This document shows, in pieces, positions 7,247 through 30,287 of a stretch of DNA of 64,000 nt. Position numbers and translations under genes: made by a program. Position 1 is the first letter of the stretch, and every line of letters begins with the position of its first letter. Origin of the DNA: Dinghuibacter silviterrae (lineage in GTDB: Bacteria; Bacteroidota; Bacteroidia; Chitinophagales; Chitinophagaceae); contig NZ_SODV01000002.1 of NCBI RefSeq assembly GCF_004366355.1, forward strand, positions 1,900,768 through 1,964,767. The letters run 5' to 3'. The notes under the pieces are model-generated. The model saw only the letters and a program-made list of their open reading frames with translations, ran no database searches and was not told the origin of the DNA.

Positions 7247-7274
7247 ATGCGACGAGCAGCCCTAACGGGCTGCC

Positions 7275-7787: not shown

Positions 7788-7797
7788 AGCCCCGAAG

Positions 7798-9498: not shown

Positions 9499-9537
9499 AT
9501 GCATGTCTAGATAAAAAGAAGATAAAACGGTAAACCT

Positions 9538-9545
9538 CAAAAATA
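9538..9545 (-). promoter_or_regulatory. -7 promoter element of the S8 peptidase gene
   Basis: TATTTTTG read on the minus strand, an exact TAnnTTTG match about 33 nt before the ATG at 9504. Confidence 0.55.
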
Positions 9546-9650
9546 CGGGTTCCTGTGATGAAAGGCCCCATTTATATGATGATTGGCGTGTGATGACTTG
9601 GTGAATTCACGAATCTTTAACTGTCCGGGAATTTCCATAGATTTACCGCC

Positions 9651-14088: not shown

Positions 14089-14114
14089 CGGGTTTTTGTG
14101 GTGAAAATACTGAA

Positions 14115-14630
14115 TTACTGCCTCAGGTGGTGCAACCGCTCCTTCAGGAACTCGTTCGCGGATGCAATCTGGTTATTGACGGTATTCTTGGAGATGGACA
14201 ACTGTACGGCAATCTCCTCGTGGCTGAGCCCCTCATTCCGGCTGAGCTTGTAGATATGTTTCCGTTTGGCCGGCAGGGCTTCGATGGCGGCTTCTATATC
14301 CTGGAGCGCCTCTTTGGTATGCAACGGTGCGGCCCCGTCCTTTTGCTGGCCGTCATCCAGTTGTTGCAGGAAACGGATGCGGGTGACCTCCCGGCGGCGG
14401 TGATCGATCACCATATTTTTTGCAAACGTGAACAACTGCCGGCGCGCATCTTCCAGCCCTCCCTGTTCAAAGGCCGTCGGCCAAAGATTTGTATAACATT
14501 GCTGCACGACGTCTTTGGCGAGGTCATGGTCTCCTAACAATTTCCGCGTGAAATGGAACAGCTGATCGAAGGAGTTTTGGTATATGTCGTGGAAGACGCG
14601 CTCTCGATGTTTGTCGAATGCAGTTCGCAT
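14115..14630 (-). CDS. ECF RNA polymerase sigma factor (FecI-like)
   Basis: 171 residues with both sigma regions: region 2 at about 15-80 (QNSFDQLFHFTRKLLGDHDLAKDVVQQCYTNLW) in pieces typical of sigma-24 and region 4 at about 115-168, ending in a helix-turn-helix (SHEEIAVQLSISKNTVNNQI). It directs RNA polymerase to a small set of promoters, and by position is expected to control the FecR/TonB receptor operon that starts 124 nt away on the other strand. A -7 motif TATTTTTG (14656-14649) drives it. Usually such sigma genes sit directly upstream of fecR on the same strand; here they are head to head. Confidence 0.92.
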   Translation of the reverse strand: MRTAFDKHRERVFHDIYQNSFDQLFHFTRKLLGDHDLAKDVVQQCYTNLWPTAFEQGGLEDARRQLFTFAKNMVIDHRRREVTRIRFLQQLDDGQQKDGAAPLHTKEALQDIEAAIEALPAKRKHIYKLSRNEGLSHEEIAVQLSISKNTVNNQIASANEFLKERLHHLRQ

Positions 14631-14648
14631 CGGTGATGATTAGTTCGA

Positions 14649-14656
14649 CAAAAATA
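14649..14656 (-). promoter_or_regulatory. -7 promoter element of the ECF sigma gene
   Basis: TATTTTTG on the minus strand, 18 nt before the sigma ATG, an exact TAnnTTTG match in the 124-nt divergent control region. Confidence 0.55.
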
Positions 14657-14754
14657 AGGGCCCCTACTACACGGCCCGCGTTAATTTTTCGGCACGTATT
14701 AAGTTAATGTTAACGGTAGTTATGGGTTCTCCTGTGTCCGTTGTGGTTCATGTA

Positions 14755-15696
14755 ATGGACTTTGAAACTTTTTGCAAATACATGAAGGGCGGGTGTTCTC
14801 CGGCGGAGCGCGCCCGTTTCGAGCAATGGTGGTCCGAACATCCCCGGGAGGTGGACGCCTGGTTCGAACGGGTGTGGGCCGAACAACCGGAACACAATAC
14901 CAGGGAACGGGCAGAGATATGGGAACACGTCAAGCCAGGGGAAGAACGCCGTGGATACTTTCGCGGGCGCCGCGGTGGCTTCTTTCGATGGGCCGCGGTC
15001 GCGGCGCTGGTGATCGGGCTCTGCGGTTACCTCCTGACACGGCACCGCCACGAGGCCGCGCCCGTCACCCTGAGCTGGGCAACGCTGACAAATGACTCCG
15101 CAAAGCCCCGTCATTACCTGCTGCCCGATAGCACCGGGGTATGGCTGAACGGGCATTCATCCCTTGCGTATAACAATAGGGACAGGCGAACGCGTTTGTC
15201 GGGAGAAGCCTTTTTCACCGTCCGGAAGGATCCCGCACGGCCCTTTAGCGTGGAGGTTCCGGGAATGGTTACCAAAGTGTTGGGTACCTCCTTTAATATC
15301 GACGCGTATCCCGGGGAACGGGCGGTGCACCTGGCCCTTGTACAAGGCGCCGTGGGGGTCTGGGCAGGGAGGGACAGCATCGTGCTAAAACCCGGGGATA
15401 TGGTCACGCTGGGCGCGCGCGGGCTTGTGAAAGGCCGGTTCGCCGTGAACGACGTCAGCGCGTGGACCCAGGGCAAGCTGGTCCTGGACCAGGTGGATCT
15501 TACCGATGTGATGCGCCGTATCACCCTGCAGACGGGCGTTACAGTTGATATAGATCCGCGTGTTGCGCGCCGGTCGCTCAAGATCAGCGGGATTTACGAC
15601 ATGAAGTCGGTAGGCAATATTCTGGCGTCTATCGCCTTTGTACATAGCCTCCGGGTCATCCGGAGACAAAAGGACCATTACTACCTGAATTACTAA
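14755..15696 (+). CDS. FecR family anti-sigma factor
   Basis: 313 residues from the ATG at 14755; upstream in-frame codons encode no recognisable part of the family. A cytoplasmic anti-sigma region (about 1-75, including CSPAERARFEQWW) is followed by a membrane helix (about 83-100, FFRWAAVAALVIGLCGYLL), the FecR domain (about 120-215, with GEAFFTVRKDPARPFSVEVPG and VTKVLGTSFNI) and a C-terminal DUF4974/STN-like module (VDLTDVMRRITLQTGVTVDID). It should hold the ECF sigma factor inactive until the periplasmic side is touched by the STN domain of the receptor encoded 17 nt downstream. First gene of the eight-gene operon. Confidence 0.92.
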   Translation: MDFETFCKYMKGGCSPAERARFEQWWSEHPREVDAWFERVWAEQPEHNTRERAEIWEHVKPGEERRGYFRGRRGGFFRWAAVAALVIGLCGYLLTRHRHEAAPVTLSWATLTNDSAKPRHYLLPDSTGVWLNGHSSLAYNNRDRRTRLSGEAFFTVRKDPARPFSVEVPGMVTKVLGTSFNIDAYPGERAVHLALVQGAVGVWAGRDSIVLKPGDMVTLGARGLVKGRFAVNDVSAWTQGKLVLDQVDLTDVMRRITLQTGVTVDIDPRVARRSLKISGIYDMKSVGNILASIAFVHSLRVIRRQKDHYYLNY

Positions 15697-15713
15697 CGGT
15701 ATAAACCAGCTAC

Positions 15714-18700
15714 ATGAAACAACGGTTGTCATACGGACTACCTGTCATCCTATTGCTTTTCCTGTCCGTGAGGGTCTTCGGGCAGGACGTATACTCCCTG
15801 GGGACGAAAGTCACCCTGAAGGCCAGCGGTCAAACCGCGGACGTCGTGCTCAAACAGCTCGGGCGTCAAACGGGATACTCGTTTTCCTTCGACGCGGATG
15901 CCCTCAAAAGAATCGTGATCAACGGGCTGGATGAGGAAAACGTGCCCCTGGGGCGTGTCTTGCGTACCTTAGGCGCCAGTTATGGGTTCGACTTCGTGCT
16001 CATCGACAAGACGATCAGCGTGCGTGTCGTCGCCCGGGCGGCCCGCCGGTTGGCCTGGTCCCGTTGGAATGGCCGGGTCACCGATGCCGCCAACGGCCAG
16101 CCTCTCGCCGGTGCGGACGTGACCGTCAGGGGGAGCAGGGAAAGCACCATCACCGGTGCGGATGGACGGTTTTCGATGGACGTACAGGAAGAATCCCCCG
16201 AGTTTGTGTTTTCGATGATCGGGTATAAGATCCGCAGCGTCCATCCCGCCGGCCCGCAAGAGGTGGCGGTCTCGCTGGCCCCGGACGTCCGGGCCATGGG
16301 CAGCGTCGTGGTGGAGGCTCGCAAGCGCGTTAATACCGAGGCCTCCCTGCTCAACGAACGCAAAAACGCGGCCGTTGTGTCGGACGGTATCTCCGCCCAA
16401 CAGATCGAGAAGACGGCCAGCATCACGACGACCCAGGCCCTGCAGAGGGTGGCCGGGGTAACGATCACAGACGACAAATACGTGGCCATCCGCGGGCTGG
16501 GCGACCGGGCGGTGATCGCCGAGCTCAACGGTGCACGGTTGTCGAGCGCCAACCCCGACCGCAGCGCGGTTCCCCTGGACCTGGTACCCGCCGGCCTGTT
16601 GGACAATATTACGGTATACAAGACGCTCACGCCCGACCACCCGGCGGACGCCTCGGCGGGGATCATCGAGCTAAAGACCAAATCCATCCCGGATTCCCTG
16701 ACGGTGCAGTTCACCGTCCAGGGTGGATTTAACTCCACGGTGGGGCTGGCCGGACAGTATAACGGGTTCTACCATGACAACCTTGGATTTTGGGGACAGC
16801 GTGTGAAGGAGCACAACCTCAGCCAGGCCTTTCTGAACCTCAACCAGCAATACCCGGGCGGCCTGATCCAGATCCAGGAGCAGTTCATCAACAGCAGGCA
16901 AAGCCCCCAGGCTACGGCCGAAGCCTACCGGATCAACAGCATCATGCAGTCCTTCGACCCGGTCCTGACGACCTCCTATCAAAAGGCGGCGCCCAACCAG
17001 ATCTATGCGGCCACCATAGGGAATGACTTCAGGGTATTCCACGGGCACTCGCTGGGGGTGATCCTCAGCGGCAGCTACTACCAGCGTACCGAGGACATCT
17101 ACAACGGCGAGCTCAACCAATACAGCCTCTACCAGGGGGTCGTAACCGGTTCCCCCGCTATCTACTCCCCCATGCACATCCCAAACTACATCACCCCCGA
17201 CTTTCCCCGCCTGGGGAAGTTCCTGAGTTACCAGGAGAGCACGGGCAAGGTAACCCTGAACTATGGGGTGCTGGCGGGGGTGGCCTACCGGTTCAACCGG
17301 GGGAACGACGTCCAGTTCCAATATATGGGCAGCCGGGGCGCCGAGGCACAGGGCAGCAACCTGACAGGGGCATGGGACAATACCGGGTTGAACTACCCGG
17401 TCTATAACGTCATCAACCAGCTCCACCAGACCTACCGGGTTTTCAACACCTTCAACCTCCAGGGGGAACACCGCCTGCTGGGCGGAAAATGGACCCCACA
17501 CCTGAGCTACAACCTCAGCTCTTCCAGGTCCGTCCAGAACGAGCCCGACTTCCGGTTTACCGACCTGGCCGACCTGCGGACGACCCGGTACGTGGATCCC
17601 AACGGGGTTGGCATCGGTTCGGATACCTATGCATTCGTTTTCGGAACGGTACACGGGCTGGGGCCGAGTGGCAGCGAGATCGGCGCGGACCCCAATGGCC
17701 GCCGCTACCGGAAGCTGGTCGAAAACAACTATAACGCAAAGGCCGACCTGGCTATTCCCTTTACCATACACGGTTTGAATCAAGAATTGAAATTCGGAGG
17801 GAACTACCTGAAACGGGACCGGACCTTTTCGGAGAACATCCTAGGTCTCCCCGGGACGAACCTGGGGGGCGATAACGGTTTGTTGAACCAACTGGGCGGC
17901 GACCTGAACGCGCTGGTGTCGTACCAAAACATCGGCCTGAAGGGCCCCTCTAATTATGATAATGAGGGACAGCCCAGGGTAGGGGGCTTTCTCTACCAGA
18001 TCCGCAAGTCCCCCAACAATTATACCGGTACCTACGAGACCGACGCCTTTTATGGCATGGCGGACCTCCACCTGACCAAACAGTTGCGGCTCATCGGTGG
18101 CGTCCGCTTCGAATCCACGGACATACAGGCGCACGTCGACACCAACCAGGTGTTCAACCCGGTGGCCGCCAACCCCTCGCTGCAGTCGGCCTACGGGGGC
18201 AACCTGTCGTTCAGTACCTCCGAACCCAACACGGGCTATTCCACGGGATACAAGCCCTATTACTCAGCTAACCTCGTCTATACATATCACAAGAACATGA
18301 ATTTCCGCGTGGCTTACAGCACGTCACTGGCGCGGCCGGAGCTGAGAGAAATCACCGATATATACGAATTCGACCCTTTCCAGTTTGCCGTTGTCGTCGG
18401 CAATCCGTCCTTAGTCAACCAACTTACAAAAAGCGCAGACTTCCGTTGGGAGTGGTTCCCCAGGGCGGGGGAGGTGTTTTCCGCCTCCGTCTTCGGGAAG
18501 CGCATCGAGCACCAGCTCACCAAAGTATTTATCTACAACTCCCAGGGCAACCAGGCTAAATTCCCCGAATTCCCGATCGTGGAATTCCAGAACGACCCGA
18601 ACATCGGCGTGGTGTACGGCGTGGAGCTGGAAGCCCGCAAGGACCTCGGGGCCATCTGGCCGGGTTTGGCCCACGTGTTTTTCGGGTCGAACCTGCTCCT

Positions 18701-19139
18701 GGCGGCGAGCTCGATCGACAAAAACCCCGAGCGGCTGAATGCAGACCGGACCAATGACCGGTTTTCACCCGCGACGAGCCCGGTGTTCGAACAGGCGCCC
18801 TATTCCATCAACGCCTACGTGGACTACGTCCATCCCCGCTGGGGAACCGACGTGACGGTGAGTTTCAACATCGTGGGAGAACGCCTCGTCCAGGTCCAAC
18901 TGGATGGAACCCCGGACATCTACGACCGGCCCATGCCGACCCTGGACTTCGTCTTTAGCCAACGGTTGGGCAAGCGCTGGCTGGCAAAGGGATTCGCCAA
19001 GAACCTCCTTAACCCGCCCTACCGGGAGGTCTACGCCGACCCGGGTAATAACGGCCAATTCCACGGCATCACCTATGTCCACCATCAATACTACAAAGGG
19101 TCCGAACTGGCCCTGGGTCTCACCTACAACTTGTTTTGA
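15714..19139 (+). CDS. TonB-dependent receptor with STN signalling domain
   Basis: 1141 residues. Order of parts: signal peptide (1-22), STN domain (about 32-95, LKASGQTADVVLKQLGRQTGY), CarboxypepD_reg-like domain (about 118-190, GRVTDAANGQPLAGADVTVRG), plug (about 215-335, with VAIRGLGDRAVIAELNGARL and ITVYKTLTPDHPADASAGIIELKTK) and a 22-strand-type barrel ending in the aromatic ALGLTYNLF. The protein takes up or senses an unknown ligand at the outer membrane using TonB energy; the STN domain normally contacts FecR. No SusD partner follows; instead the next gene, 2 nt downstream, is a DUF4397-like lipoprotein. The receptor therefore seems to work with the fasciclin/DUF4397 lipoproteins. Confidence 0.92.
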   Translation: MKQRLSYGLPVILLLFLSVRVFGQDVYSLGTKVTLKASGQTADVVLKQLGRQTGYSFSFDADALKRIVINGLDEENVPLGRVLRTLGASYGFDFVLIDKTISVRVVARAARRLAWSRWNGRVTDAANGQPLAGADVTVRGSRESTITGADGRFSMDVQEESPEFVFSMIGYKIRSVHPAGPQEVAVSLAPDVRAMGSVVVEARKRVNTEASLLNERKNAAVVSDGISAQQIEKTASITTTQALQRVAGVTITDDKYVAIRGLGDRAVIAELNGARLSSANPDRSAVPLDLVPAGLLDNITVYKTLTPDHPADASAGIIELKTKSIPDSLTVQFTVQGGFNSTVGLAGQYNGFYHDNLGFWGQRVKEHNLSQAFLNLNQQYPGGLIQIQEQFINSRQSPQATAEAYRINSIMQSFDPVLTTSYQKAAPNQIYAATIGNDFRVFHGHSLGVILSGSYYQRTEDIYNGELNQYSLYQGVVTGSPAIYSPMHIPNYITPDFPRLGKFLSYQESTGKVTLNYGVLAGVAYRFNRGNDVQFQYMGSRGAEAQGSNLTGAWDNTGLNYPVYNVINQLHQTYRVFNTFNLQGEHRLLGGKWTPHLSYNLSSSRSVQNEPDFRFTDLADLRTTRYVDPNGVGIGSDTYAFVFGTVHGLGPSGSEIGADPNGRRYRKLVENNYNAKADLAIPFTIHGLNQELKFGGNYLKRDRTFSENILGLPGTNLGGDNGLLNQLGGDLNALVSYQNIGLKGPSNYDNEGQPRVGGFLYQIRKSPNNYTGTYETDAFYGMADLHLTKQLRLIGGVRFESTDIQAHVDTNQVFNPVAANPSLQSAYGGNLSFSTSEPNTGYSTGYKPYYSANLVYTYHKNMNFRVAYSTSLARPELREITDIYEFDPFQFAVVVGNPSLVNQLTKSADFRWEWFPRAGEVFSASVFGKRIEHQLTKVFIYNSQGNQAKFPEFPIVEFQNDPNIGVVYGVELEARKDLGAIWPGLAHVFFGSNLLLAASSIDKNPERLNADRTNDRFSPATSPVFEQAPYSINAYVDYVHPRWGTDVTVSFNIVGERLVQVQLDGTPDIYDRPMPTLDFVFSQRLGKRWLAKGFAKNLLNPPYREVYADPGNNGQFHGITYVHHQYYKGSELALGLTYNLF

Positions 19140-19141
19140 TC

Positions 19142-20896
19142 ATGAAGCTGCGTAACCTGTTCGTGCTCGCCCTTATCCTCCAGGCCTGTGTCAAGAGCAA
19201 GGTAGAGAACGTCATTCCGCCCCTGTCGGTCCTGAATTCGACGCCTTCCAGCATCCGCCTGTTCAATTTCTGCGCGTACGATTTGGACGTCAAGGTGAAC
19301 AACAATCCCCTGACCTCCTTTATCACCAATTCCACCGTCGGAGGCACCGCCCTGGGTTTGAGCATCTTTCCCTCGGGCAAATGGCCCCATTCCCAGGATG
19401 GGGACCCGTGGTCCATTCCGGTGGAAATCCTGGACAAGAACGGCCGGGCGCATATCACCCTGAATTTCCGGAGTGCATCCTTCTCCAGTTCTGCTCCGGC
19501 CGGTATAGACACGGTGCTCCAGGACGATCCCCTGAATCCCAGGGATTATTATGTCATGGATGACCCGCCTTATTTCCGGTCATACCCCAGGCTGAACAGC
19601 GCGCCCAGCCAACCTCAGAATGTCAAGATCCGGATCATCAACCTGGGACAGGCGAACGATCCCCTGGGGGTTTCGGGGCCGGTCACCCTGACCTATGCGG
19701 ACGGCACCCCGGTCGGCGCCGCCACGTCCAACATAGGCATGGATTCCACCAGCGGCTACATAGAGGTGCCTTACGGGGCCTATGAATTCAAACTTTTCAA
19801 CAGCAGCGGCAGCACCGGCATCGACATCACGCATCAATTGGTGGAGTTGCCGCTGTATCCCAATTACAACACCTGTAACCCGAGACTGCAGGAGGGTATT
19901 TTTCCCCAAATGCGGACCTACAAACCCGGGGGAGTATACAGCCTGGTGATTACCCCTAACTGGTTCAGGTATAACGATTGTATCCCTGGTACGGGCGACT
20001 ACTCCACCGCCCGGATCAACGCCTATCGTACGGTAACGGAGGCGACACCGGGTGTCAATGTCACCTTCGCCCAGATGCAGGCGGTCAATGCACTGGGGTC
20101 GGGGAATGTTACCTTCCGGGTGGACGGCCAGGCGCTTGGCGGCCCGCTGGCCTTCGGGCAGCCGACGGATAATGTCATTTATGTGCAAGGCACCCACCAG
20201 GTCAGCCTGCTGGACGCCGGCGGGAACGTCCTGGTGCAGAAATCCATCACGCTTTCTCCTTACGACTATTATACGATCTGGGCCTATCCGAAGACAGACG
20301 GCACGCCGGACATCATCTTCGCCGCCTGTGACATGTCGGGAGAGATTTATTCCAGTGTATACAACAACGGGGCCGGGGGCGTCGACGACGGTACCAATGG
20401 GTCCGCCCGCATCTACCAGGTCCTGTGGCAGTGGCAGAGCCGTTTCCTCAACCTGTGCCCGGACGTGCCCTATGCGACGTTCACCGACGATTCTACCCTG
20501 ATGACCAACTTTGGCGCCGGCAACGATGGCGATGGATACCCGCAGGCCGTTACTAACCTTAGCCCTGGCTATATGCCCCCCCTCAATCCCTACATCCTTT
20601 ATTCGGAAACGATTATGTGGGGATCCCCGGACACCTGGAACACCACCGCGGGGGCGCCCCCTGCCGTGATCCGGGCCTACCAGTCCAGCCCGGGTCCCGT
20701 AGCCGAGGTCCCGGGCACCCTTTTGCTAAGCGTACCCCCCCTGAGGGTAGCGCAGGCGTGTGTCGCCAACCCCGCCTTGTATTCCCCCGGTTATGCTCCT
20801 TCGGCGGAGCCGGGCGTTTATACGACGGCGCTGGTCGGTTCCCTGTCGGGGACAGGCCCCGCGGCGCGGATGATCGTTATCAAACACAACAAATAA
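19142..20896 (+). CDS. DUF4397-like surface lipoprotein 1
   Basis: 584 residues from the ATG at 19142, 2 nt after the receptor stop. The signal peptide ends in the lipobox LQAC (Cys16), followed by Val-Lys. The mature part is Asn/Thr/Gly-rich and beta-stranded. Two or more Ig-like units can be made out: one around 30-140 (IRLFNFCAYDLDVKVNNNPL), a second around 155-260 (NVKIRIINLGQANDP ... YIEVPYGAYEFKLF), and a third around 330-400 (VTFRVDGQALGG ... YDYYTIWAYPK). The pattern, a short ligand-name strand, then V-P-x-G-x-Y/F-x-F/V, is that of DUF4397. Role unknown; probably exposed at the surface with the receptors of the same operon. Confidence 0.75.
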   Translation: MKLRNLFVLALILQACVKSKVENVIPPLSVLNSTPSSIRLFNFCAYDLDVKVNNNPLTSFITNSTVGGTALGLSIFPSGKWPHSQDGDPWSIPVEILDKNGRAHITLNFRSASFSSSAPAGIDTVLQDDPLNPRDYYVMDDPPYFRSYPRLNSAPSQPQNVKIRIINLGQANDPLGVSGPVTLTYADGTPVGAATSNIGMDSTSGYIEVPYGAYEFKLFNSSGSTGIDITHQLVELPLYPNYNTCNPRLQEGIFPQMRTYKPGGVYSLVITPNWFRYNDCIPGTGDYSTARINAYRTVTEATPGVNVTFAQMQAVNALGSGNVTFRVDGQALGGPLAFGQPTDNVIYVQGTHQVSLLDAGGNVLVQKSITLSPYDYYTIWAYPKTDGTPDIIFAACDMSGEIYSSVYNNGAGGVDDGTNGSARIYQVLWQWQSRFLNLCPDVPYATFTDDSTLMTNFGAGNDGDGYPQAVTNLSPGYMPPLNPYILYSETIMWGSPDTWNTTAGAPPAVIRAYQSSPGPVAEVPGTLLLSVPPLRVAQACVANPALYSPGYAPSAEPGVYTTALVGSLSGTGPAARMIVIKHNK

Positions 20897-20900
20897 GTAT

Positions 20901-22172
20901 ATGCGCACTTATATATGTATAGGAATCCTATTGGTGTTGGTGGGGTCTTGCAGGAAATATCCTGAAGCCAGCCCCCTGTCCGGGGCGGCCTACATCCGGG
21001 TGTTCAACGACATTGCCACGTCGGTGGACTTCCTGCACAGCCAGCAGGCGCCACCCTTCCTGACCTTTATCATGGACCCCCACCTGGACGCCGGCGGCGC
21101 CCCGGATACAGGATTGGTCGTGGGTGATTTCCTGGGTACACGGCAACTCTACAGCTTGTCCTACCCGATCAACGAAGGCAACAGCCTTGGGGTCGACCTG
21201 CAACAGATCGATAATTATTCGAACAATGTCACCATCACACCGGGATATGTCAATTATGAATATCCCGGTAACGCCCACGTCCCGACGGCCCCCGCCCTCA
21301 ATGGGTTCGACCTCTCCTCCTGGGCGCAGGTTCCCTCCGGCAAGCACCGCTTCGTTTTCGTGATCAGGCCACAGACGGATACGGCCTTCAGCCGTTTGTC
21401 AACCACGATCCGCCACCAGATCCTCATCGATACGACCCTGGACCTCCAGGCGGGCGAAGTGTATACCATGGAGGCCTTGTCCACCGACCTCGACAACAAC
21501 CGATACGGTGCGTATGTCCGCCAGGAGCAGTTCATCCACCAGGCCTTCGAACCGGATCAATTGTATGCGGGATTCGTCAACCTGTCCGGTGTTACGCCAC
21601 ATTCAGCACGTTTGGGATACTTCCCGGATTTTCCGGATTCCACCGTCATTTACTACACCTACTATATCCACAATGACTTCAACAACGGGCTTGGTGTCGA
21701 ATTTGGCCAGGATCACTACAATCCGCTCACGGGTTATAACAACAATTACTATACGACCCTCAACCAGCGGATGGCGACCCAGATTTCTTACCTGGGGCTA
21801 CCCTTACTGGACAAGAGCTATTTCTTCATCCAGGATTCTTTGCGGTCCTACGCGAATTACCTCAATAATTCGGGCTATGGGTACATGGGTAATTTCCCCT
21901 TCGTACAATTTTCGATCTACGCCCAGGACAGTACGGCCTATGCCCATAATTACCTGCCCTTTGTGCTCAACTGTGCGGCGAACCCCGTCACCTTCAACAA
22001 TTACCTGCCGGGTGTCGGCACCACGTTCCACTTTACGCCCAACCTGGACCTGCTCGTCAACGTGGGCGGACAAGTAAGCGTCTATCCCACCCTCAACATT
22101 ATGGAAATGGTCTATGACCGGGTGTACCTGATGCAAATACAAAATGCCTTCAACCAAGTTCCCAATCAATAG
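20901..22172 (+). CDS. DUF4397-like surface lipoprotein 2
   Basis: 423 residues, 4 nt after the previous stop. Lipobox VGSC with Cys17, then Arg-Lys. The N-terminal part (AAYIRVFNDIATSVDFLHSQ) begins with the strand typical of DUF4397 domains, and SGKHRFVFVIRP fits the end of the first unit; a second unit from about residue 210 (QLYAGFVNLSGVTPHSARLG) follows. Very rich in Tyr, Asn and Asp in the C-terminal half. Same orientation and near-zero spacing place it firmly in the operon. The first bases of the gene and the spacer (TAAGTATATGCGCA) are repeated exactly at the start of the third FAS1 gene. Confidence 0.72.
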   Translation: MRTYICIGILLVLVGSCRKYPEASPLSGAAYIRVFNDIATSVDFLHSQQAPPFLTFIMDPHLDAGGAPDTGLVVGDFLGTRQLYSLSYPINEGNSLGVDLQQIDNYSNNVTITPGYVNYEYPGNAHVPTAPALNGFDLSSWAQVPSGKHRFVFVIRPQTDTAFSRLSTTIRHQILIDTTLDLQAGEVYTMEALSTDLDNNRYGAYVRQEQFIHQAFEPDQLYAGFVNLSGVTPHSARLGYFPDFPDSTVIYYTYYIHNDFNNGLGVEFGQDHYNPLTGYNNNYYTTLNQRMATQISYLGLPLLDKSYFFIQDSLRSYANYLNNSGYGYMGNFPFVQFSIYAQDSTAYAHNYLPFVLNCAANPVTFNNYLPGVGTTFHFTPNLDLLVNVGGQVSVYPTLNIMEMVYDRVYLMQIQNAFNQVPNQ

Positions 22173-22176
22173 CGCC

Positions 22177-23211
22177 ATGCGAAGAACATACCTCATCGTC
22201 CTCGTGCTCCTGGCGGGCGCCTGCTCGAAAAGCCAGACATCCACGCCCGTCCCCGTCATCGAAGGGCAAACCCTCCTGCAGCGGTTGAAGAATAACTATG
22301 ACTTCAGCGAGTTTTACAATGCCCTTCAAAGGGTACACCTGGACACGCTGCTGGAAGGCCCGGGGCCCTTTACCCTCCTGGTCCCCGACAACACCGCCCT
22401 CCAGGCACAGGGCATCACCCAGGACAGCCTGAACCGCATAGATACCGGACAGCTCCGGAAGTTGCTGGCGTACCATATATTGGAGAACAATATCACCTAC
22501 GCCAGCATTCCCCAGACGATCGACTACATATACCGCAACATCGAAGGCCTGCCTTTATATTTTTCGGTACCGGTTCCCGGGAACACCCAGACACAACCCA
22601 CCGGGATACAGTTCCTGCACGTCAACGGGGTGAAAGCGACGAGCCTGGACCTGGTAGCGACCAACGGCGTCATCCAGGTGTTGAGCAGCCCGTTGTCCTA
22701 TCCTGTGCCTTCGATAAAGGAATTCCTGGTGAATAATCCGAACTACAGCATGTATGTCTCCGCGCTCCAACAGTACGGCGAGCTGAACCAACTGGACAGC
22801 GCGGGTCCATGGGTGGTGTTCGCCCCCGACAACAATGCGTTTGCGAACTGGAACATCACCATGGACACGATCACCGCGGAGACGCCGCAAACCAACTACT
22901 CCTGGCTCTGGACGGCAGGGGTCATGCCCCACGAGCTGTTCTTTGCGTCCGACATTCTTGATGGACCGGTGGAGATCGGCGCCGGTGGCTATTATTTAAC
23001 CGCCAACTATGTCATCCAGTTCGGTTATTACGGGCAGGCGGGCCTGTCCTGCTACCGGCCCAACTACATCCAGGTGTATAGCCAGGGAGGGGTATACTCC
23101 CTGGGCGACTATTGTAACGATGTCGACCCCGATCACATCGCCATGAACGGCGTGGTGCACGGGCTCGATGGCTTGCCGGTCTACCCGGATTCCACCATTG
23201 TCCAACCATAA
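22177..23211 (+). CDS. fasciclin (FAS1) lipoprotein 1, two domains
   Basis: 344 residues from the ATG at 22177, 4 nt after the upstream stop. Lipobox AGAC (Cys16), then Ser-Lys. Two FAS1 units are visible: residues about 30-165, with SEFYNALQRVHLDTLLEGPG, PFTLLVPDNTAL and LLAYHIL, and about 180-340, with YSMYVSALQQYGELNQL, PWVVFAPDNNAF and a final IAMNGVVHGLDGL, which is the usual closing strand (NG-V-I-H-x-I-D). FAS1 domains are adhesion modules in animals, plants and bacteria. The spacing of the T-V-F-A-P-x-N and the late N-G-V boxes is normal, so both domains look intact. Confidence 0.85.
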   Translation: MRRTYLIVLVLLAGACSKSQTSTPVPVIEGQTLLQRLKNNYDFSEFYNALQRVHLDTLLEGPGPFTLLVPDNTALQAQGITQDSLNRIDTGQLRKLLAYHILENNITYASIPQTIDYIYRNIEGLPLYFSVPVPGNTQTQPTGIQFLHVNGVKATSLDLVATNGVIQVLSSPLSYPVPSIKEFLVNNPNYSMYVSALQQYGELNQLDSAGPWVVFAPDNNAFANWNITMDTITAETPQTNYSWLWTAGVMPHELFFASDILDGPVEIGAGGYYLTANYVIQFGYYGQAGLSCYRPNYIQVYSQGGVYSLGDYCNDVDPDHIAMNGVVHGLDGLPVYPDSTIVQP

Positions 23212-23222
23212 ACCGACATGTC

Positions 23223-24467
23223 ATGAATCGATATATCTTGTTATCCTGTCTCCTCCTGGGCGTGGCTTGTCGCAAGGCGACCGACTACCTTATCCAGCCT
23301 TCCCATCAAATGCACAACTCCGCGGGGAACCTGGTCCAGGTGCTGGACAGCAGCGACTGCCATTTGTTCGACCAGGCATTTCACCGGGTGGGTCTGGACA
23401 CAACGCTCAAGACCAACGGCGGATACACCATTTTCGCTCCTTCCGACTCCGCCATGACCGCGGCGGGGCTCACTTCCCAGGCGATCGCCGCGCTTCCGAT
23501 CGATTCCCTGGCGCAGATCGTCCGGTACCATGTTGTCGCGGGCGCCTATAGCGACGCGGCCCTGACCTCGGCCGAGGTGAGCGTCCAGGCGGCCTCGCTC
23601 AGGGCGGATATCAGCCTCGACACGTTATTGGGAGACGTCGTTTACCAGCAGAACTTGTATATCAAGGAGAACGGAGTGGTATACATCAATGGTGAAGCGG
23701 CAGGCAACGGGATGCCCGCGGTAGCCGCCTTTAATGGCTATTTGTTTACCCTCCGAAAGGTCCTCGCGGCGCCCCGGCAGTCGCTCTGGCAGATCATTTC
23801 CTCCGATCCCCGCCTGAGCCTTTATTGTGCCGCCCTCCGAATCGACGATAGTCTGTACAACGCCTATGAGAAAACATCGCCGTCATACCCGTATTTTAAC
23901 GTTCATTATTCCGATTCGCTTTTTTTTGCCACGGTGAACATCGCCAATCCCAGTAATAGTTATCCCGAGAATCCGAACCTGCCCACCGTATTCGCCCCCA
24001 CGGATTCCGCCTTCCGCGCGGCAGGTTTTAACTCGGTGGACGATATACGGCAGTATGCCCTGAGCGCGCCTATCGGCACTGGCGGACCCACCCCCAACAA
24101 TTACACGCAACTGGTCGATATTCCCATGGACAGCATCCTGTATGCGCATGTGATCTACAACGCGAACAATGCAAGCCCGGCGGGCTACCTGGCGTTGTAC
24201 AATGACCTCCAGTTCAGCCCCCTGGTGAACCACGGGTTACAGAACACCAATTCTTTCCAGATATTGGAATCTAACTTTTATTTGTTCTACTACCAGCCGT
24301 ATCCCCTGGTGTTTTCGGTGCAGAATGGAGTCCCCTACATCCAGTGGAACCCGGCTATCTCCCCTGTGCCGTTGTCCCCCGACACGGATCCCACCCACCC
24401 GAAACACTTCATGGCCAGGAACGGAGCCCTGTATATCATCGATCAATTATTCACCTCACCCAATTAA
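23223..24467 (+). CDS. fasciclin (FAS1) lipoprotein 2, two domains
   Basis: 414 residues, 11 nt after the preceding stop. Lipobox GVAC (Cys16), then Arg-Lys. First FAS1 unit at about 30-185 (HLFDQAFHRVGLDTTLKTNG, YTIFAPSDSAMTAAGL, IVRYHVV), second at about 190-410 (SLYCAALRIDDSL, PTVFAPTDSAFRAAGF, closing FMARNGALYIIDQLF). The second unit is longer than usual because of an insertion between the helix and the T-V-F-A-P strand (about residues 215-255, Tyr/Pro/Ser-rich). It is the longest of the four paralogues. Confidence 0.85.
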   Translation: MNRYILLSCLLLGVACRKATDYLIQPSHQMHNSAGNLVQVLDSSDCHLFDQAFHRVGLDTTLKTNGGYTIFAPSDSAMTAAGLTSQAIAALPIDSLAQIVRYHVVAGAYSDAALTSAEVSVQAASLRADISLDTLLGDVVYQQNLYIKENGVVYINGEAAGNGMPAVAAFNGYLFTLRKVLAAPRQSLWQIISSDPRLSLYCAALRIDDSLYNAYEKTSPSYPYFNVHYSDSLFFATVNIANPSNSYPENPNLPTVFAPTDSAFRAAGFNSVDDIRQYALSAPIGTGGPTPNNYTQLVDIPMDSILYAHVIYNANNASPAGYLALYNDLQFSPLVNHGLQNTNSFQILESNFYLFYYQPYPLVFSVQNGVPYIQWNPAISPVPLSPDTDPTHPKHFMARNGALYIIDQLFTSPN

Positions 24468-24471
24468 GTAT

Positions 24472-25524
24472 ATGCGCATCCTTTTATTGTTGATCATCCT
24501 GGGTTCTTTTGGTGCGGTCTCCTGTACCAAGAGTCATCCCGCTTCCGCGGCGATCCAGGACAGCCTTTACGGCGAGCGTGCTTCTTTCGTGATCCAGGAC
24601 AATTTCAACTTCAGCATGTATAGTACGGGTATTACGACGACGGGCTACGCCGATACGCTTGCCGGGGCCGGTCCTTTTACGGTGCTGGCTCCCGTCAACA
24701 CGGGATGGGCGGGTACCCAGTGGAGTATCTACTTCATCGGTTATCCGCTCGGCACCTGGTCCTCTACTTTCCTCAACGATATATTCAACTATAGCATTCT
24801 GCGCGGCCGCTATTCCTTCGACTCCCTGCCGCTGGGCGACAACCAACCGATTCCCACCTACGGAGGCTTTCACGTCTGGGTCAGCAAGTACGTCAGCGGG
24901 ACGGATACCGTCGTTACGGTCAACGGGGCCCCGCTGACAGGCGTGGATATTCCCACCTCCAACGGTCTTATCCAGGCGGTTTCGCTATTGCTCAACCCGG
25001 AGGAAACCCATTCGATTACGGATTGGGTTAAAAACTTCCCCGATCTCACCATGTTTGCCGTGGCCCTGACACGCGTCGGCGCCGACAGCCTCCTGACGAA
25101 GGGCGGACCATGGACGGTGCTGGCGCCCAACAACACCGCCTTTGTGCAGGCGGCCTGGATGGGTCTTGGAATCAGTACCGTGGACAGCCTCCTGACGGCA
25201 GACACAGCGGTACTGGGCCCCCTGGTGAGGGGGCATATCATCCCGGGCAGCCGGCGGTTTCTCAACGACTTCGACCGGTGGCTGGCGGCACCGGGGGATA
25301 CCGTGATGGTGACCGCGCTGAATGGAGAGCAGGTCCGCTACTTCCAGGAACAAGCGGGCTGGGGGATCCTTCCGGACCATTTCCTGGGGGGAAGCGGCCA
25401 GGGCACTCCCGGCGGCATTCCGTCTGCCAATTCCAACCAAGTAGAAGATAAATATAGATACCAGGCGGACATCCCCAGCGAAAACGGTGTGCTTCACGTC
25501 ATCGACCAGGTCTTACAACCATGA
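24472..25524 (+). CDS. fasciclin (FAS1) lipoprotein 3, two domains
   Basis: 350 residues from the ATG at 24472, 4 nt after the previous stop. Lipobox AVSC (Cys18), then Thr-Lys. First FAS1 unit about 30-175 (FSMYSTGITTTGYADTLAGAG, PFTVLAPVNTGW), with a weak closing strand (IPTSNGLIQAVSLLL), second about 180-348 (LTMFAVALTRVGADSLLTKGG, PWTVLAPNNTAFVQAAW, LVRGHIIPG, closing SENGVLHVIDQVL). The second domain is the best conserved FAS1 module of the whole cluster. The first domain starts with an odd RASFVIQDNFN segment and its P-x-N box is less typical. Confidence 0.85.
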   Translation: MRILLLLIILGSFGAVSCTKSHPASAAIQDSLYGERASFVIQDNFNFSMYSTGITTTGYADTLAGAGPFTVLAPVNTGWAGTQWSIYFIGYPLGTWSSTFLNDIFNYSILRGRYSFDSLPLGDNQPIPTYGGFHVWVSKYVSGTDTVVTVNGAPLTGVDIPTSNGLIQAVSLLLNPEETHSITDWVKNFPDLTMFAVALTRVGADSLLTKGGPWTVLAPNNTAFVQAAWMGLGISTVDSLLTADTAVLGPLVRGHIIPGSRRFLNDFDRWLAAPGDTVMVTALNGEQVRYFQEQAGWGILPDHFLGGSGQGTPGGIPSANSNQVEDKYRYQADIPSENGVLHVIDQVLQP

Positions 25525-25528
25525 CAAT

Positions 25529-26503
25529 ATGAAAAAGAAATTAACCCTGATATTACTCCTGGCGTCTTCCTGTACCAAATATCCCGCCCCCAAAGGGGAC
25601 TTGGGCCCGGAGCTGACGCTCAGCCAGTACACCGCCCAGGACACCAATTTCCGGCTCTACAACCTGGCGCTCCAACGGTCCGGGATGGCAACGGACACCA
25701 CGTTCGCCAGCGGGGGGCCGTATACCATCTATGTGCCCATGAACGGGGCCATGCAGGGAGCGGGGTTCAACCAGCAAACCCTTGCCACGTATGACACGGC
25801 ACGGCTGCGCGGCATCCTGGAATACGGGATCTTGAACGGGCGCCTCAGCGGGGCAAGCCTGACGGGTACCTATAGCGAAACGGTCACCTGTCTGAATCCC
25901 CTGTTCCAGCCCGAATTGACGAAGAACTATTACGGCATTTTCCTGGACGGCGTCCCCGTCGTCAAACCCGATATACCCGTCTCCGAAGGGGTCATCCAGG
26001 CCACCGACCGGATGGTCCTGCCCCCTACGGGTACGCTCATGCAGGAGATAGACAGTCTTCCGGAGCTGACCATCTTTGGCGCCGCTGTCCGTCACATCGC
26101 GCGTTTCAGAAACCTTTTGGAAAATCCCGCCCCCGTCAAGAACAACGGCAACGGAACGAACTTTTACGGCATCACGTTGCTGGCGCCCAACAACAGCGCC
26201 TTCAAAGACTTCGGGTTTCCCGATACTGCTTCGATACAACAGGCGGATTCCAATTATATGTATAACCTGCTTTATGTCTACTTCTTCCCCGGGGAATATT
26301 ATACAAGCGATTTCAAGGGCGGCATAACCTTCGGAGGGCCGTACTTCAATTACTCGGGTAATGGCGCGTTGTTCAGCATAGAAGCGGACGGCATCACCTT
26401 CCAGTCCGCCGCCAACGTACAATACACCGTCCAGATCGTCAAACCGGACATCTCCGCCACCAATGGAGTGATACATGAACTGAACTATATATTATTCCCA
26501 TGA
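25529..26503 (+). CDS. fasciclin (FAS1) lipoprotein 4, two domains
   Basis: 324 residues from the ATG at 25529, 4 nt after the previous stop. The signal peptide is short, with lipobox ASSC (Cys15), then Thr-Lys. First FAS1 unit about 28-165 (FRLYNLALQRSGMATDTTFASGG, PYTIYVPMNGAM, closing VSEGVIQATDRMV), second about 170-322 (LTIFGAAVRHIARFRNLL, ITLLAPNNSAFKDFGF, closing SATNGVIHELNYILF). Its stop overlaps the start of the Oar-like receptor gene (ATGA, 26500-26503), so these two are translationally coupled. Confidence 0.85.
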   Translation: MKKKLTLILLLASSCTKYPAPKGDLGPELTLSQYTAQDTNFRLYNLALQRSGMATDTTFASGGPYTIYVPMNGAMQGAGFNQQTLATYDTARLRGILEYGILNGRLSGASLTGTYSETVTCLNPLFQPELTKNYYGIFLDGVPVVKPDIPVSEGVIQATDRMVLPPTGTLMQEIDSLPELTIFGAAVRHIARFRNLLENPAPVKNNGNGTNFYGITLLAPNNSAFKDFGFPDTASIQQADSNYMYNLLYVYFFPGEYYTSDFKGGITFGGPYFNYSGNGALFSIEADGITFQSAANVQYTVQIVKPDISATNGVIHELNYILFP

Positions 26504-29500
26504 AACTCTCTACACTGTTTCTTTTTTGCACGGGCGTTTTGCTTAGTTTACTCGCGGCGGGCCAGGAAACCGGCGGTGGCCTTACCGGGCGCATCCTCGA
26601 CACGGCTGGTGCGCCGTTGGCCGGGGCCACCGTCACCGCCGTTCACCAGCCTTCAGGGACCCATTACGAGACCGTGACCTCCCCGGATGGGCGTTATCAC
26701 CTGCCGGGGTTGCGTGTCGGCGGACCCTATATATTGAGCGTTAGTTATGCCGGTATGACCCCCAGGACGCTGGACATTGACCAGGTTCGATTGGGCGAAA
26801 CACTTACACAGAATATAGCGCTTCAACCCGCCGTGCACGAGGTCGCCGGCGTGGTCATCAAGGCGGCTTCGGCCGCGCCCAGGGCCAATACCTTTGGCGC
26901 CGGTCTGAACATCGGCCGCGACCAGCTGCGCACCATGCCGACGGCGACGCGCAGCATCACCGACATGACCCGTCTCGTGCCCCAGGGCTCAAAAGATAAT
27001 TCCTTTGCAGGCAGCAATTTCCGGTACAACAACGTCACCATCGACGGCGCCATCAACAACGACGCCATCGGCTTCAGCCCTAGCTTAGGCGGTCAGACGG
27101 GCACTTCTAACATGCCCGGTTCATCCACCCGGAACAACCCGATCTCCCTTGACGCCATCGAGGACATGCAGGTCTATCTCTCGCCCTACGACGTGACCCT
27201 GGGTAATTTCAGCGGGGGCAGCATTAACGCCGTCACCCGCAGCGGCACCAACAAAGTGACCGGCTCTATTTATACCTATGGCCGTAATGCCGCCATCACC
27301 GGACCGGACAATACCCATCAGGAGCAGGCGCGCAAAATGCCTTCCGACTTCCACGACTACCAGGTGGGCGCCCGGGTGGGGTTTCCGATCGTTAAAAACA
27401 AAGTTTTTTTCTTCACCAACGAAGAACTCACCCGCCGGGTGGATCCCATCCAGCAGGTAGCCGGTAGCGCCGCTTCTGGCGGCATCCTAAGCCTGGCAGA
27501 TGCAGACAGCATCCGGTCGCACATGATCAACACCTATGGTATCGACCCGGGAACAGCGGGGGTGTACGACGTCTATTCCAATTCCAATAAATTCTTCAAC
27601 CGCCTCGACTGGAATATCGGCCGTCGCACCCAACTCGTCTTGCGCAACAACACCATGCACTCCGAAGCCATCAATATGGAGCGCGACCAGTTCGACTTCC
27701 GTTTCGCAGGGATCGGCTATCAGCAGGTCAACAACCAGACGTCCACGGTAGCGGAACTCAAGACCCGTTTCAACAACCGCTGGTCCAACAGCTTCGTGGC
27801 AGGTTTTACGTCCATACACGACTTTCGCAACCCTTTAAGCGACCCCTCCATTCCCCAGGTGCAGATCGTGGGCCGGAGCCCCGGTTCCACCATCTTCCTG
27901 GGCACCGACCGGGAGGCCGCCATCTTCAACCAGAAACAGCGCACCATCGAGATTACCGACAACGTGACCTGGAACCTCGGCCGCCACACGATCACCATGG
28001 GGACCCACGACGAGCTGTACCACATCTCCTACGGCTTCGTCAATTCCTGGAACGGGCGCGTGACCTATCAAAGCATCGAAGACTTCCTGGCGAATAACCC
28101 CGAACGGGTGCAAGGGAACTATAACTTCGCGAACAACGCCCGCGCGTATATCCTCGCGCATCCGGGCGCCGTTTTCAACGTCAACTTGTACAGCGCCTAC
28201 CTCCAGGACGAGGTGCAGGTATCCGACCGGTTCAAGGTAACCTACGGCCTGCGCGCCGATTATGATGTAGTGCCCTCGAAGCAACCGTTGAGTGAAAAAA
28301 CGCGGACCGCCGTGTCAGACCCCAACTTTGGTTTTTCGTACACCTATACCCAGATGAACCAGATCAACCAAAGCTACCTTACCCGTCCGGAGATCTCCCC
28401 CCGCATCGGTTTCCGGGCCGATCCCCGCGGTGACCAGCGGGTCATCCTGAGGGGCGGCCTGGGTATCTTCACCAGCCGGATTCCCTTCGCCTGGCTGGGC
28501 TATGCCTTCTACAATAACGGAGACACGTACGGTTCTTTCGACCAGAAGACCGATGGCAACCCGCCCGCGCCCTTCGCCCCCGGCACCGACCCCCTGAAGC
28601 CCAACCAGGGGCAACCCGGGATCGCCGGCTTTATCGCCAACCAGGGTCGGATCGTGAACAACCCCAACGCCGGTCAGACCCAGGTAGACCTCATCGACAA
28701 CCACTTCATCATGCCCGAGGTATTGCGCGGCAGCTTCGCGGTGGACTATACCGATAGGTTCGGCTTCAAATACACGTTCGAAGCGCTCTACACAAAGACT
28801 TTGAAGGACGTATTGTTCCAACAGGTCAATATCAAGGACAACCCGACCTACTATGCGTACGACTCCGCCCTCAACCAACGGAAACAACCCATCTTCGGCG
28901 GCAGCATCAACCCCCAGTTCGCCAACGCCTACGAGCTCAGCAATACCAACCGTGGCTACCGCTACAGCCTGACCGCACAGGTCAGCCGCAAATTCCCGAA
29001 CGGCTTCCAGGCCATGGCCGCGTACACCTTCGGCCACTCCATGGACATATCCAACGGTATCCGGAACTCCATGGAGTCCAACTGGCAGGTCAACCAAGCG
29101 CTCAACCCCAACAACCCGGGCCTTGCTCCCTCCAATTTCGACCTCCGCCACCGCATCGTGGCAGACGCCGGGTATGAGGTCACCTGGCACGGCCACTGGC
29201 GGACCAGCGTCCTGTTGTTTTTCAGCGCCCAGTCCGGCGCCCCCTTTACCTATGGCTTTGTCAACTATACCGTGCAAAACACTCCTCAGCAGGTCAGCCT
29301 GGCGTATATCCCCCGCGTAGGGGAGTCGGTGAATTTCTTCCAGAGCTATACCGACAAGACCGGTCAATACCAAACCGCCGCCCAGCAAGCCGCCGCCTTC
29401 GACGCCTTTATCGACAGCAGTCCTTATTTGCGTTCCCGCCGCGGAGACTTCACGCAGCGCAACGCCGTCACCACCCCCTGGAACAACGACCTCGACTTCC

Positions 29501-29778
29501 ACTTCGGCCAGGAATTCGGGCTGGGCGGAAGCCGTGTTGTTTCTTTTACCCTCGACATCCTTAACCTAACCAACTTGCTCGACCCCAACTGGGGACGCGT
29601 GTACTTCGTACCCAATACCTACAATTCCACGGCCAGCGTGGGGCTGATCCCCTATATCCCCGCCCGCGTGTCGCAGGGGTATCCCATTTATCAGTTTATC
29701 AACCCGGGGAAGCCGTACTCGGTGGATTTTATGGCCAGCAGATGGCAGATGCAGGCGGGGGTGAGGTATAGTTTTTAA
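26500..29778 (+). CDS. Oar-like TonB-dependent receptor
   Basis: 1092 residues with a signal peptide (about 1-22) and a CarboxypepD_reg-like domain (about 27-115: TGRILDTAGAPLAGATVTAV, YHLPGLRVGGPYILSVSYAG). The plug region begins near 120 (LNIGRDQLRTMPTATRSITDM) and carries YNNVTIDGAINNDAIGF, typical of the Oar group of carboxypeptidase-regulatory TonB receptors (Oar of Myxococcus). Barrel strands follow to the C-terminal MQAGVRYSF. There is no STN domain, unlike the first receptor of the operon. Oar proteins are outer-membrane transporters, in some species used to export large proteins such as adhesins or proteases; whether this one moves the lipoproteins encoded beside it is a guess. Last gene of the operon. 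Confidence 0.9.
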   Translation: MKLSTLFLFCTGVLLSLLAAGQETGGGLTGRILDTAGAPLAGATVTAVHQPSGTHYETVTSPDGRYHLPGLRVGGPYILSVSYAGMTPRTLDIDQVRLGETLTQNIALQPAVHEVAGVVIKAASAAPRANTFGAGLNIGRDQLRTMPTATRSITDMTRLVPQGSKDNSFAGSNFRYNNVTIDGAINNDAIGFSPSLGGQTGTSNMPGSSTRNNPISLDAIEDMQVYLSPYDVTLGNFSGGSINAVTRSGTNKVTGSIYTYGRNAAITGPDNTHQEQARKMPSDFHDYQVGARVGFPIVKNKVFFFTNEELTRRVDPIQQVAGSAASGGILSLADADSIRSHMINTYGIDPGTAGVYDVYSNSNKFFNRLDWNIGRRTQLVLRNNTMHSEAINMERDQFDFRFAGIGYQQVNNQTSTVAELKTRFNNRWSNSFVAGFTSIHDFRNPLSDPSIPQVQIVGRSPGSTIFLGTDREAAIFNQKQRTIEITDNVTWNLGRHTITMGTHDELYHISYGFVNSWNGRVTYQSIEDFLANNPERVQGNYNFANNARAYILAHPGAVFNVNLYSAYLQDEVQVSDRFKVTYGLRADYDVVPSKQPLSEKTRTAVSDPNFGFSYTYTQMNQINQSYLTRPEISPRIGFRADPRGDQRVILRGGLGIFTSRIPFAWLGYAFYNNGDTYGSFDQKTDGNPPAPFAPGTDPLKPNQGQPGIAGFIANQGRIVNNPNAGQTQVDLIDNHFIMPEVLRGSFAVDYTDRFGFKYTFEALYTKTLKDVLFQQVNIKDNPTYYAYDSALNQRKQPIFGGSINPQFANAYELSNTNRGYRYSLTAQVSRKFPNGFQAMAAYTFGHSMDISNGIRNSMESNWQVNQALNPNNPGLAPSNFDLRHRIVADAGYEVTWHGHWRTSVLLFFSAQSGAPFTYGFVNYTVQNTPQQVSLAYIPRVGESVNFFQSYTDKTGQYQTAAQQAAAFDAFIDSSPYLRSRRGDFTQRNAVTTPWNNDLDFHFGQEFGLGGSRVVSFTLDILNLTNLLDPNWGRVYFVPNTYNSTASVGLIPYIPARVSQGYPIYQFINPGKPYSVDFMASRWQMQAGVRYSF

Positions 29779-29845
29779 GGCTCTGTTTTTGTATGCGGTG
29801 CCGCGCTTGTGTGCGGCGCCGCCCCCTCGGGGCGCTGCAAATTCC

Positions 29846-29853
29846 TATCTTTG
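29846..29853 (+). promoter_or_regulatory. -7 element in front of the decayed L,D-transpeptidase gene
   Basis: TATCTTTG, an exact TAnnTTTG match 20 nt before the ATG at 29874; the promoter survives although the gene is broken. Confidence 0.5.
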
Positions 29854-29873
29854 GCGGAAATTGCTATCCGGAG

Positions 29874-30275
29874 ATGAAGAACGCCCTTCTTTGCCTGGCG
29901 GCGCTATGGCCCTGCCTGTACGGATGCCATACGGCCGGCGCCGAGGCGATCGCCAGAGTGAAAAAGCGGTTACGCCTGTCCGGGGATTTTCCCCTTCCGA
30001 TACGACCCCGACCTTCGATACCGCGCTGGAGGCTGCCGTCCGCCGGGAGCAGCGTTCCTATGGTCTCCCACCCAATAAAAGACGTCCCCGGCTGGACACC
30101 CCAGCGCATCAAGGCTGCTATGCACCGCAGTAGCGAGCTCTGGGTAACACTTCCCAAGCCCATACCCGTGTATATCGTCTATTTGACGGCGTGGGTCGAC
30201 GCGACGGGGAGGGTGAATTACCGGAAGGATGTGTATGGGCATGATGCGGAGATCGAGGAGCGGATGTTCAAGTGA
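29874..30275 (+). pseudogene. remnant of a YcbB-like L,D-transpeptidase lipoprotein
   Basis: An ATG at 29874 opens a good lipoprotein signal peptide (lipobox LYGC). Around 29950-29990 the frame reads ARVKKRLRLSGDFP, the usual lead of the family's peptidoglycan-binding domain; its continuation (SDTTPTFDTALEAAVRREQ, YGL) is in a different frame at about 29996-30070. From about 30090 the first frame resumes with WTPQRIKAAM, KPIPVYIVYLTAWVD and VNYRKDVYGHD, which is the very C-terminus of these enzymes. The whole YkuD catalytic region with its HxxxSHGC motif is missing. I infer at least one frameshift and a large internal deletion. A complete family member would have several hundred residues more. 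The remaining 133-codon frame could still be translated. Confidence 0.75.
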
Positions 30276-30287
30276 GGCAAGCCTCAC
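30272..30287. repeat. inverted repeat over two convergent stop codons
   Basis: GTGAGGC-AA-GCCTCAC, a perfect 7-bp stem. One arm holds the TGA of the transpeptidase remnant and the other the TGA of the Fic gene. No T-run follows, so it is at best a weak terminator. Confidence 0.6.

Follow-up and report, generated by a model that had tools for sequence, protein, structure and literature searches.

A conserved Chitinophagaceae cassette joining a TonB receptor, FAS1 and DUF4397 lipoproteins and an Oar-like barrel with an adjoining ECF sigma/FecR pair

TonB-dependent transporters that work with a lipoprotein other than SusD are known from XusAB and BtuBG (PMC13142918), and these systems, together with SusC-SusD pairs, the Fec switch, Oar and the lipoprotein dome of the β-barrel assembly machinery (BAM), are partial counterparts of the gene cassette described here. 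The cassette occupies positions 14115 to 29778 of a 64,000-nucleotide stretch of the Dinghuibacter silviterrae genome (hereafter the window; contig NZ_SODV01000002.1, positions 1,900,768 to 1,964,767) and encodes an extracytoplasmic function (ECF) sigma factor, a FecR protein, a TonB receptor (TBDT1), six predicted lipoproteins (D1, D2 and F1 to F4) and an Oar-like outer-membrane barrel. XusA shares an N-terminal carboxypeptidase-like domain with TBDT1 (PMC13142918). However, XusAB and BtuBG work with one lipoprotein (XusB being a beta-propeller) and no second barrel, whereas the cassette has six lipoproteins, of which D2 has no relative in the PDB at E<=1 by sequence search and D1 a best E of only 0.17; in the same search the Oar-like barrel had no match and TBDT1 retrieved only isolated carboxypeptidase-like N-terminal domains. 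A SusC-SusD locus with FAS1 companions in the same genome (L008) likewise has a TonB receptor with CarboxypepD_reg and Plug domains followed by lipoproteins that include FAS1, but the cassette differs in having no SusD and no enzymes, two D-type lipoproteins instead, a second, Oar-like barrel and three or four FAS1 proteins per cassette. With FecIRA the cassette shares an ECF sigma factor, FecR and a TonB receptor that carries a signalling domain at its N-terminus (PMC11658791). The genes behind the switch, however, encode lipoproteins and the second barrel and no ATP-binding cassette (ABC) importer. In the Fec system the switch precedes the ABC importer genes fecBCDE. The likeness to Oar of Myxococcus xanthus (PMC11658791) goes back to the original prediction, which was made from the letters of the window alone; Pfam finds OMP_b-brl_4 and CarboxypepD_reg, and, unlike Myxococcus Oar, the barrel has no conserved cargo gene beside it; the name Oar-like denotes this likeness. 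The extracellular dome BamG-K of the Bacteroidota BAM joins two barrels and four surface lipoproteins in one outer-membrane machine, but its families are different and it is an architectural precedent only (PMC12578637). As the original prediction supposed, no description of a system with this composition was found in the open-licence full-text literature, which is weak evidence of absence.

We regard the cassette as a real conserved unit and infer that it is a variant of the lipoprotein-assisted TonB systems with Fec-type control. By a modest preference, we read it as a lipoprotein-assisted TonB-dependent uptake complex that dispenses with SusD and carries its own cell-surface-signalling switch. 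This reading is built on gene content, gene order, correlated divergence, lipobox signals and domain assignments, all observed directly. The genes in the window are as follows.

14115-14630, minus strand: divergent ECF sigma factor of 171 amino acids (Pfam Sigma70_r4_2, PF08281, 49.1 bits)
14755-15696, plus strand: FecR-type anti-sigma factor/transducer (Pfam FecR, PF04773, 54.6 bits)
15714-19139, plus strand: TBDT1, receptor of 1141 amino acids with the order STN, CarboxypepD_reg, Plug, TonB barrel
19142-20896, plus strand: D1, predicted lipoprotein of 584 amino acids with one DUF4397 domain above the cut-off and related segments
20901-22172, plus strand: D2, predicted lipoprotein of 423 amino acids without a Pfam family, used as the cassette marker
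22177-23211, plus strand: F1, predicted lipoprotein with two FAS1 matches, the second partial (Fasciclin, 94.1 bits)
23223-24467, plus strand: F2, predicted lipoprotein with one FAS1 match and a sub-threshold second (Fasciclin, 65.3 bits, one stretch)
24472-25524, plus strand: F3, predicted lipoprotein with two FAS1 domains (Fasciclin, 91.3 bits, two stretches)
25529-26503, plus strand: F4, predicted lipoprotein with two FAS1 domains, found in clade A only (Fasciclin, 84.2 bits, two stretches)
26500-29778, plus strand: Oar-like outer-membrane barrel of 1092 amino acids with CarboxypepD_reg (OMP_b-brl_4, 189 bits)

Pfam and NCBIfam bore out the sigma factor, FecR, TonB receptor, FAS1 proteins and barrel of the original prediction, and the predicted spacing agrees with the open reading frame coordinates: 17 nucleotides between FecR and TBDT1, then 2 to D1, 4 to D2, 4 to F1, 11 to F2, 4 to F3, 4 to F4 and a 4-nucleotide overlap of F4 with the Oar-like gene. 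For FecR the ATG at 14755 was taken as the start (the longest frame begins at 14707), and the Pfam scan began two codons past the ATG, at 14761; that of F1 began one codon past it. The sigma factor scores 58.1 bits against TIGR02937, above the cut-off of 42.9, and 108.9 bits against TIGR02985, below the cut-off of 126.4.

The domain assignments support the original prediction in part. Of the two proteins described as DUF4397-like, D1 deserves the name (PF14344, 39.5 bits, and a match in 13 of the 14 D1 homologues scanned), but D2 does not, with 15.4 bits against a cut-off of 30.6 and no match at E<=0.01 among 14 homologues (14 of the 26 members were scanned in each family). Segments b and d of D1 are mutually alike (hhalign probability 81.9), and hhalign detects no relation between the segments of D1 and D2. 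The four proteins described as double FAS1 likewise divide: F3 and F4 are double, F1 has two matches of which the second is partial (22.9 bits, positions 2-41 of 123), but only one match of F2 exceeds the cut-off, its second half alone scoring 16.2 bits for Fasciclin against a cut-off of 22. In TBDT1, CarbopepD_reg_2, Plug and the TonB barrel are above their cut-offs, and among 24 homologues (E<=0.01) Plug and CarbopepD_reg_2 were found in 24 each, STN in 19 and the TonB barrel in 16; two of the 26 receptors were left out of the TBDT1 alignment, those of L026, cut by the fetched stretch, and L051, with an overlong start. All 25 Oar homologues scanned match OMP_b-brl_4 and none matches Plug at E<=0.01. 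As a separate observation, the C-terminus of D1 (window positions 20882-20896) reads KHNK in 9 of 14 homologues, KHN with another final residue in 4 and KHTK in 1.

Could the cassette be a Sus-like utilisation locus of the usual kind, with D1 or D2 as a SusD that has diverged very far? Both genes lie directly behind the receptor, the position of SusD in L008 and in two further loci, L074 and L083. However, Pfam found no SusD in D1, D2, F1 to F4 or the 14 D1 and 14 D2 homologues, and the same scan detected SusD in the three comparison loci. TBDT1 falls outside the SusC family TIGR04056, with 66.2 bits over residues 119-253 only and a cut-off of 368.25 (for TIGR01782 it scores 217.8 bits, below the cut-off of 310). 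Moreover, D1 contains DUF4397 and, as predicted, none of the cassette proteins is an enzyme by Pfam or NCBIfam. We thus consider a disguised Sus locus very improbable. The accompanying claim that the locus has no transporter holds for inner-membrane transporters but not for the TonB receptor, which is itself a transporter.

A search with the single D2 sequence gave matches in 9 of 147 family genomes, and D1 matched in the same nine, at 12 places, each adjoining one of the 12 genes for D2. A profile of D2 extended this to at least 24 places in 17 of 394 sampled genomes of the family (at most four candidates were scored per genome, so that copy numbers are lower bounds) and reached only 2 of 395 genomes in a sample of the phylum, both Chitinophagaceae. 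A contig scan confirmed two of ten candidate stretches as further loci, one in Chitinophaga niastensis DSM 24859 (L022) and one in a Chitinophagaceae metagenome-assembled genome (L023), which brings the total to 26 loci with a closest pair 91% identical in D2. A strict search for relatives of TBDT1 (E<=1e-150) among 119 genomes of the class returned nothing beyond the two copies in the window's own genome, which shows only the tight grouping of cassette receptors. All 26 loci were read, and in 25 of them the order is sigma factor, FecR, TBDT1, D1, D2, F1, (F2), F3, (F4), Oar-like barrel, with F2 absent from two loci (L023 and L059) and F4 present in six. The cassette is thus not specific to one strain, and the refuting outcome named in the original prediction, an order unique to a single strain, is excluded; it is confined to Chitinophagaceae as far as sampled, and the co-occurrence of D1 and D2 and the order in 25 loci amount to more than chance.

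In lipoprotein-assisted TonB transporters, as here, a Plug-bearing TonB receptor is encoded together with lipoproteins, and as in FecIR-type signalling the sigma factor and FecR adjoin the receptor (25 of the 26 loci). The predicted arrangement, in which sigma factor, FecR and STN receptor lead into the lipoprotein genes, is supported, the window's own STN match being below its cut-off. Its divergent sigma factor is not general: divergent orientation occurs in 3 of the 25 loci with a sigma gene and codirectional orientation in 22, and the divergent arrangement is local to the genus of the window. A second, divergent sigma/FecR pair also stands beside the cassette at L051 (positions 110-1847) and upstream of L058.

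A tree of TBDT1, D1, D2 and the Oar-like barrel, rooted at its midpoint, separates clade A (six loci including the window, all with F4) from clade B (20 loci, all without F4). An extra lipoprotein-like gene is present in 18 of the clade B loci, in 17 as a protein of 711-731 amino acids encoded 3' of the Oar-like gene and in L056 as one of 386 amino acids 3' of F3. Eight of these 18 proteins were scanned; IPT/TIG domains are present in all of them and NHL repeats exceed the cut-off in six, and the protein with which the cassette ends in L056 (L056:4032-15350) is TIG-only. No such gene was seen in the fetched flanks of the six F4 loci, which covered 1.6-6.2 kilobases past the Oar-like gene, or in those of L057 and L058. 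Apart from it and two frames upstream of L029 that look like it, every flanking frame had matches in at most two other loci when the flanks were compared with one another.

Twelve copies are spread over five multi-copy genomes, none of which has two of the same subclade, the subclades having been delimited by eye after the tree was seen. For example, the own genome has one copy per clade, the window (A) and L006 (B). The latter (L006:1394-18307, contig C1) is a second full cassette, without F4 and with a terminal TIG lipoprotein. With the subclades so drawn, this pattern resembles that of specialised paralogues.

Identity matrices of TBDT1, D1, D2, F1, F2, F3 and the Oar-like barrel correlate with one another (Mantel rho 0.66-0.91, p<=0.002, the floor set by 499 permutations; the comparison covered these seven structural genes and FecR, with F4 left out), and the seven structural genes thus evolve together. 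Mean pairwise identity is 57% for TBDT1 and 64% for the Oar-like barrel, against 29-40% for the lipoproteins. Such conserved receptors with divergent lipoproteins are what one would expect if different capture proteins served a shared transporter core, and a fixed gene order maintained while the lipoproteins diverged this far is strong evidence for a functional unit. The gaps from TBDT1 to the Oar-like gene are mostly below 40 nucleotides, with a maximum of 63, and the spacing of FecR and TBDT1 is 15-207 nucleotides in 24 of 25 loci, the 25th having an overlong frame; the short gaps between TBDT1 and the Oar-like gene suggest a single transcript. Within positions 14000-30400 of the window, promoter-like sites (13, against 8.8 in shuffles, standard deviation 3.0) and terminator-like sites (15, against 15.4, standard deviation 3.8) are near background.

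The conservation of the Oar-like barrel raises the question of export, in which this barrel or TBDT1 would export or assemble the lipoproteins or other cargo at the surface. Secretion of PopC in Myxococcus is documented as Oar-dependent and TonB-energised (PMC11658791), which keeps this explanation a live rival, and the Oar-like gene follows the lipoprotein genes in 25 of the 26 loci and encodes the most conserved protein compared. No conserved cargo gene exists apart from the lipoproteins, however; L056 retains lipoproteins without an adjoining Oar-like gene, and the lipoprotein N-termini resemble those of surface lipoproteins in general. We therefore judge export improbable, though more probable than a hidden SusD.

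These N-termini also bear on the uptake complex. A lipobox is present in 130 of 134 cassette lipoprotein genes (counted without a charge filter), and an unfiltered tally of the 130 gives Lys at C+2 in 107, while in 106 an acidic residue lies between C+3 and C+6. Most of them, with C-X-K and acidic residues, thus come close to the surface-export signal of Capnocytophaga, C-X-K-(D/E)2-X (PMC5080379). We propose that D1, D2 and F1 to F4 would be anchored in the outer membrane, probably facing outward, and would form a capture layer or lid above TBDT1, with D1/D2 and the FAS1 proteins taking the place of SusD in the complex. The Oar-like barrel would be a second, co-evolving outer-membrane subunit, which may serve import, export or as a scaffold. 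Ligand entry into TBDT1 would be signalled through the STN domain to FecR, which would release the ECF sigma factor and so promote transcription of the cassette, a putative autoregulatory loop around uptake. As for the ligand, to which no neighbouring gene points, our guess is some polymer or organic complex, with every subclade present in a genome perhaps serving its own. Capture and import is favoured because of the signalling-receptor parts, the export-like N-termini, the known lids other than SusD and the occurrence of FAS1 proteins behind SusC-SusD pairs.

The last of these was observed at three places, L008 in the own genome and L074 and L083, with SusD identified by Pfam. In L008 (positions 1305-7819; contig C2, 236000-248000) a TonB receptor, SusD, a FAS1 protein and one protein without a Pfam match stand in a row, so that a FAS1 protein accompanies an otherwise ordinary Sus pair. 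The original prediction had left ligand capture and matrix building side by side; FAS1 proteins behind SusC-SusD and the TIG lipoproteins of clade B make Sus-type capture and import likelier than a matrix builder. Adhesion nevertheless is a stronger rival than export. On that view the lipoproteins with FAS1 and DUF4397 would attach to surfaces, to polymers or to adjacent cells, with the barrels anchoring or presenting them and the sigma/FecR pair switching the coat on. One published interpretation of FAS1 in Bacteroidota is adhesion, as for a highly transcribed FAS1 gene of a Bacteroidota mussel symbiont (PMC10199937) and in a marine single-cell genome study that places Fasciclin among adhesion domains (PMC2668756). 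Four FAS1 proteins in the window and the fast divergence of the lipoproteins would also suit surface contact, and the TIG lipoprotein is the sole widely conserved flanking gene. Against this, FAS1 lipoproteins accompany the three SusC-SusD pairs, and the Plug-bearing TBDT1 is, with the Oar-like barrel, the best-conserved member, where a passive anchor needs neither plug nor STN. On balance, we find adhesion rather unlikely, but distinctly less so than export.

Among 20 FAS1 neighbourhoods outside the cassette (taken from the upper part of a longer list of FAS1 relatives, with several places skipped, and with Pfam run on the genes of L069, L074 and L083), a SusC-SusD pair beside FAS1 was confirmed in only two, L074 and L083, and in most others no TonB receptor adjoins the FAS1 gene, as judged by eye. 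FAS1 is consequently not a reliable marker of uptake, and this pattern, like the published adhesion reading, counts against the uptake complex. Several further points do so as well. The compared flanks hold no conserved uptake or enzyme gene. The STN match of the window's own TBDT1 is weak (18.7 bits, E 0.0016, cut-off 28.4), and its six lipoproteins have the Lys but not the (D/E)2 pair; the tallies of export signals stand without a control set of periplasmic lipoproteins, and the consensus is that of Capnocytophaga and may not be that of these bacteria. FecR correlates with the other genes at a rho of only 0.27-0.46, its alignments being poor (mean identity 26%), and a spaced-dyad search for a shared promoter motif ahead of TBDT1, which covered the 14 loci where this interval exceeds 75 nucleotides, did not rise above shuffles. 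Structures of D1 and D2 predicted from three-row alignments were too poor to read (mean predicted local distance difference test, pLDDT, of 39.5 and 35.5). Finally, L056 keeps TBDT1 to F3 and has no sigma factor, FecR or adjoining Oar-like gene in the stretch read, and we take it to be a reduced or rearranged version of the cassette.

A wider role of FAS1 as a mark of the same system was rejected, since neither D1 nor D2 has a match (E<=1e-3) in any of the 20 outside neighbourhoods. Two other arrangements were seen there. In L069 (positions 7643-10437) a double-FAS1 protein adjoins a histidine kinase and a LytTR response regulator, as identified by Pfam in L069 only; L070 and L071 look alike judging by their translations, and a separate FAS1 signalling module is possible. 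L076, L077, L078, L082 and L086, from genomes of one other family, share a FAS1 protein of about 320-460 amino acids in similar neighbourhoods, where some neighbours are presumably mnmA, pyrG and yidC, to judge from their translations. In the window itself, a small frame 3' of the Oar-like gene (29874-30275) has no Pfam match at E<=0.05; the end of its product is similar to the C-terminus of an L,D-transpeptidase.

SusD-type lids are a hallmark of outer-membrane capture in Bacteroidota, and few SusD-free solutions are known. More tentatively than the uptake complex as such, we suggest that the cassette may be an undescribed machine, private to Chitinophagaceae as sampled, in which the Oar-like barrel co-evolves with a signalling TonB receptor, a multi-lipoprotein FAS1/DUF4397 capture layer replaces SusD, a dedicated sigma switch provides control and subclades within one genome are ligand-specific. 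To our knowledge, FAS1 and DUF4397 lipoproteins and Oar-like barrels are largely unexplained in these bacteria, and the cassette offers roles to test for all of them.

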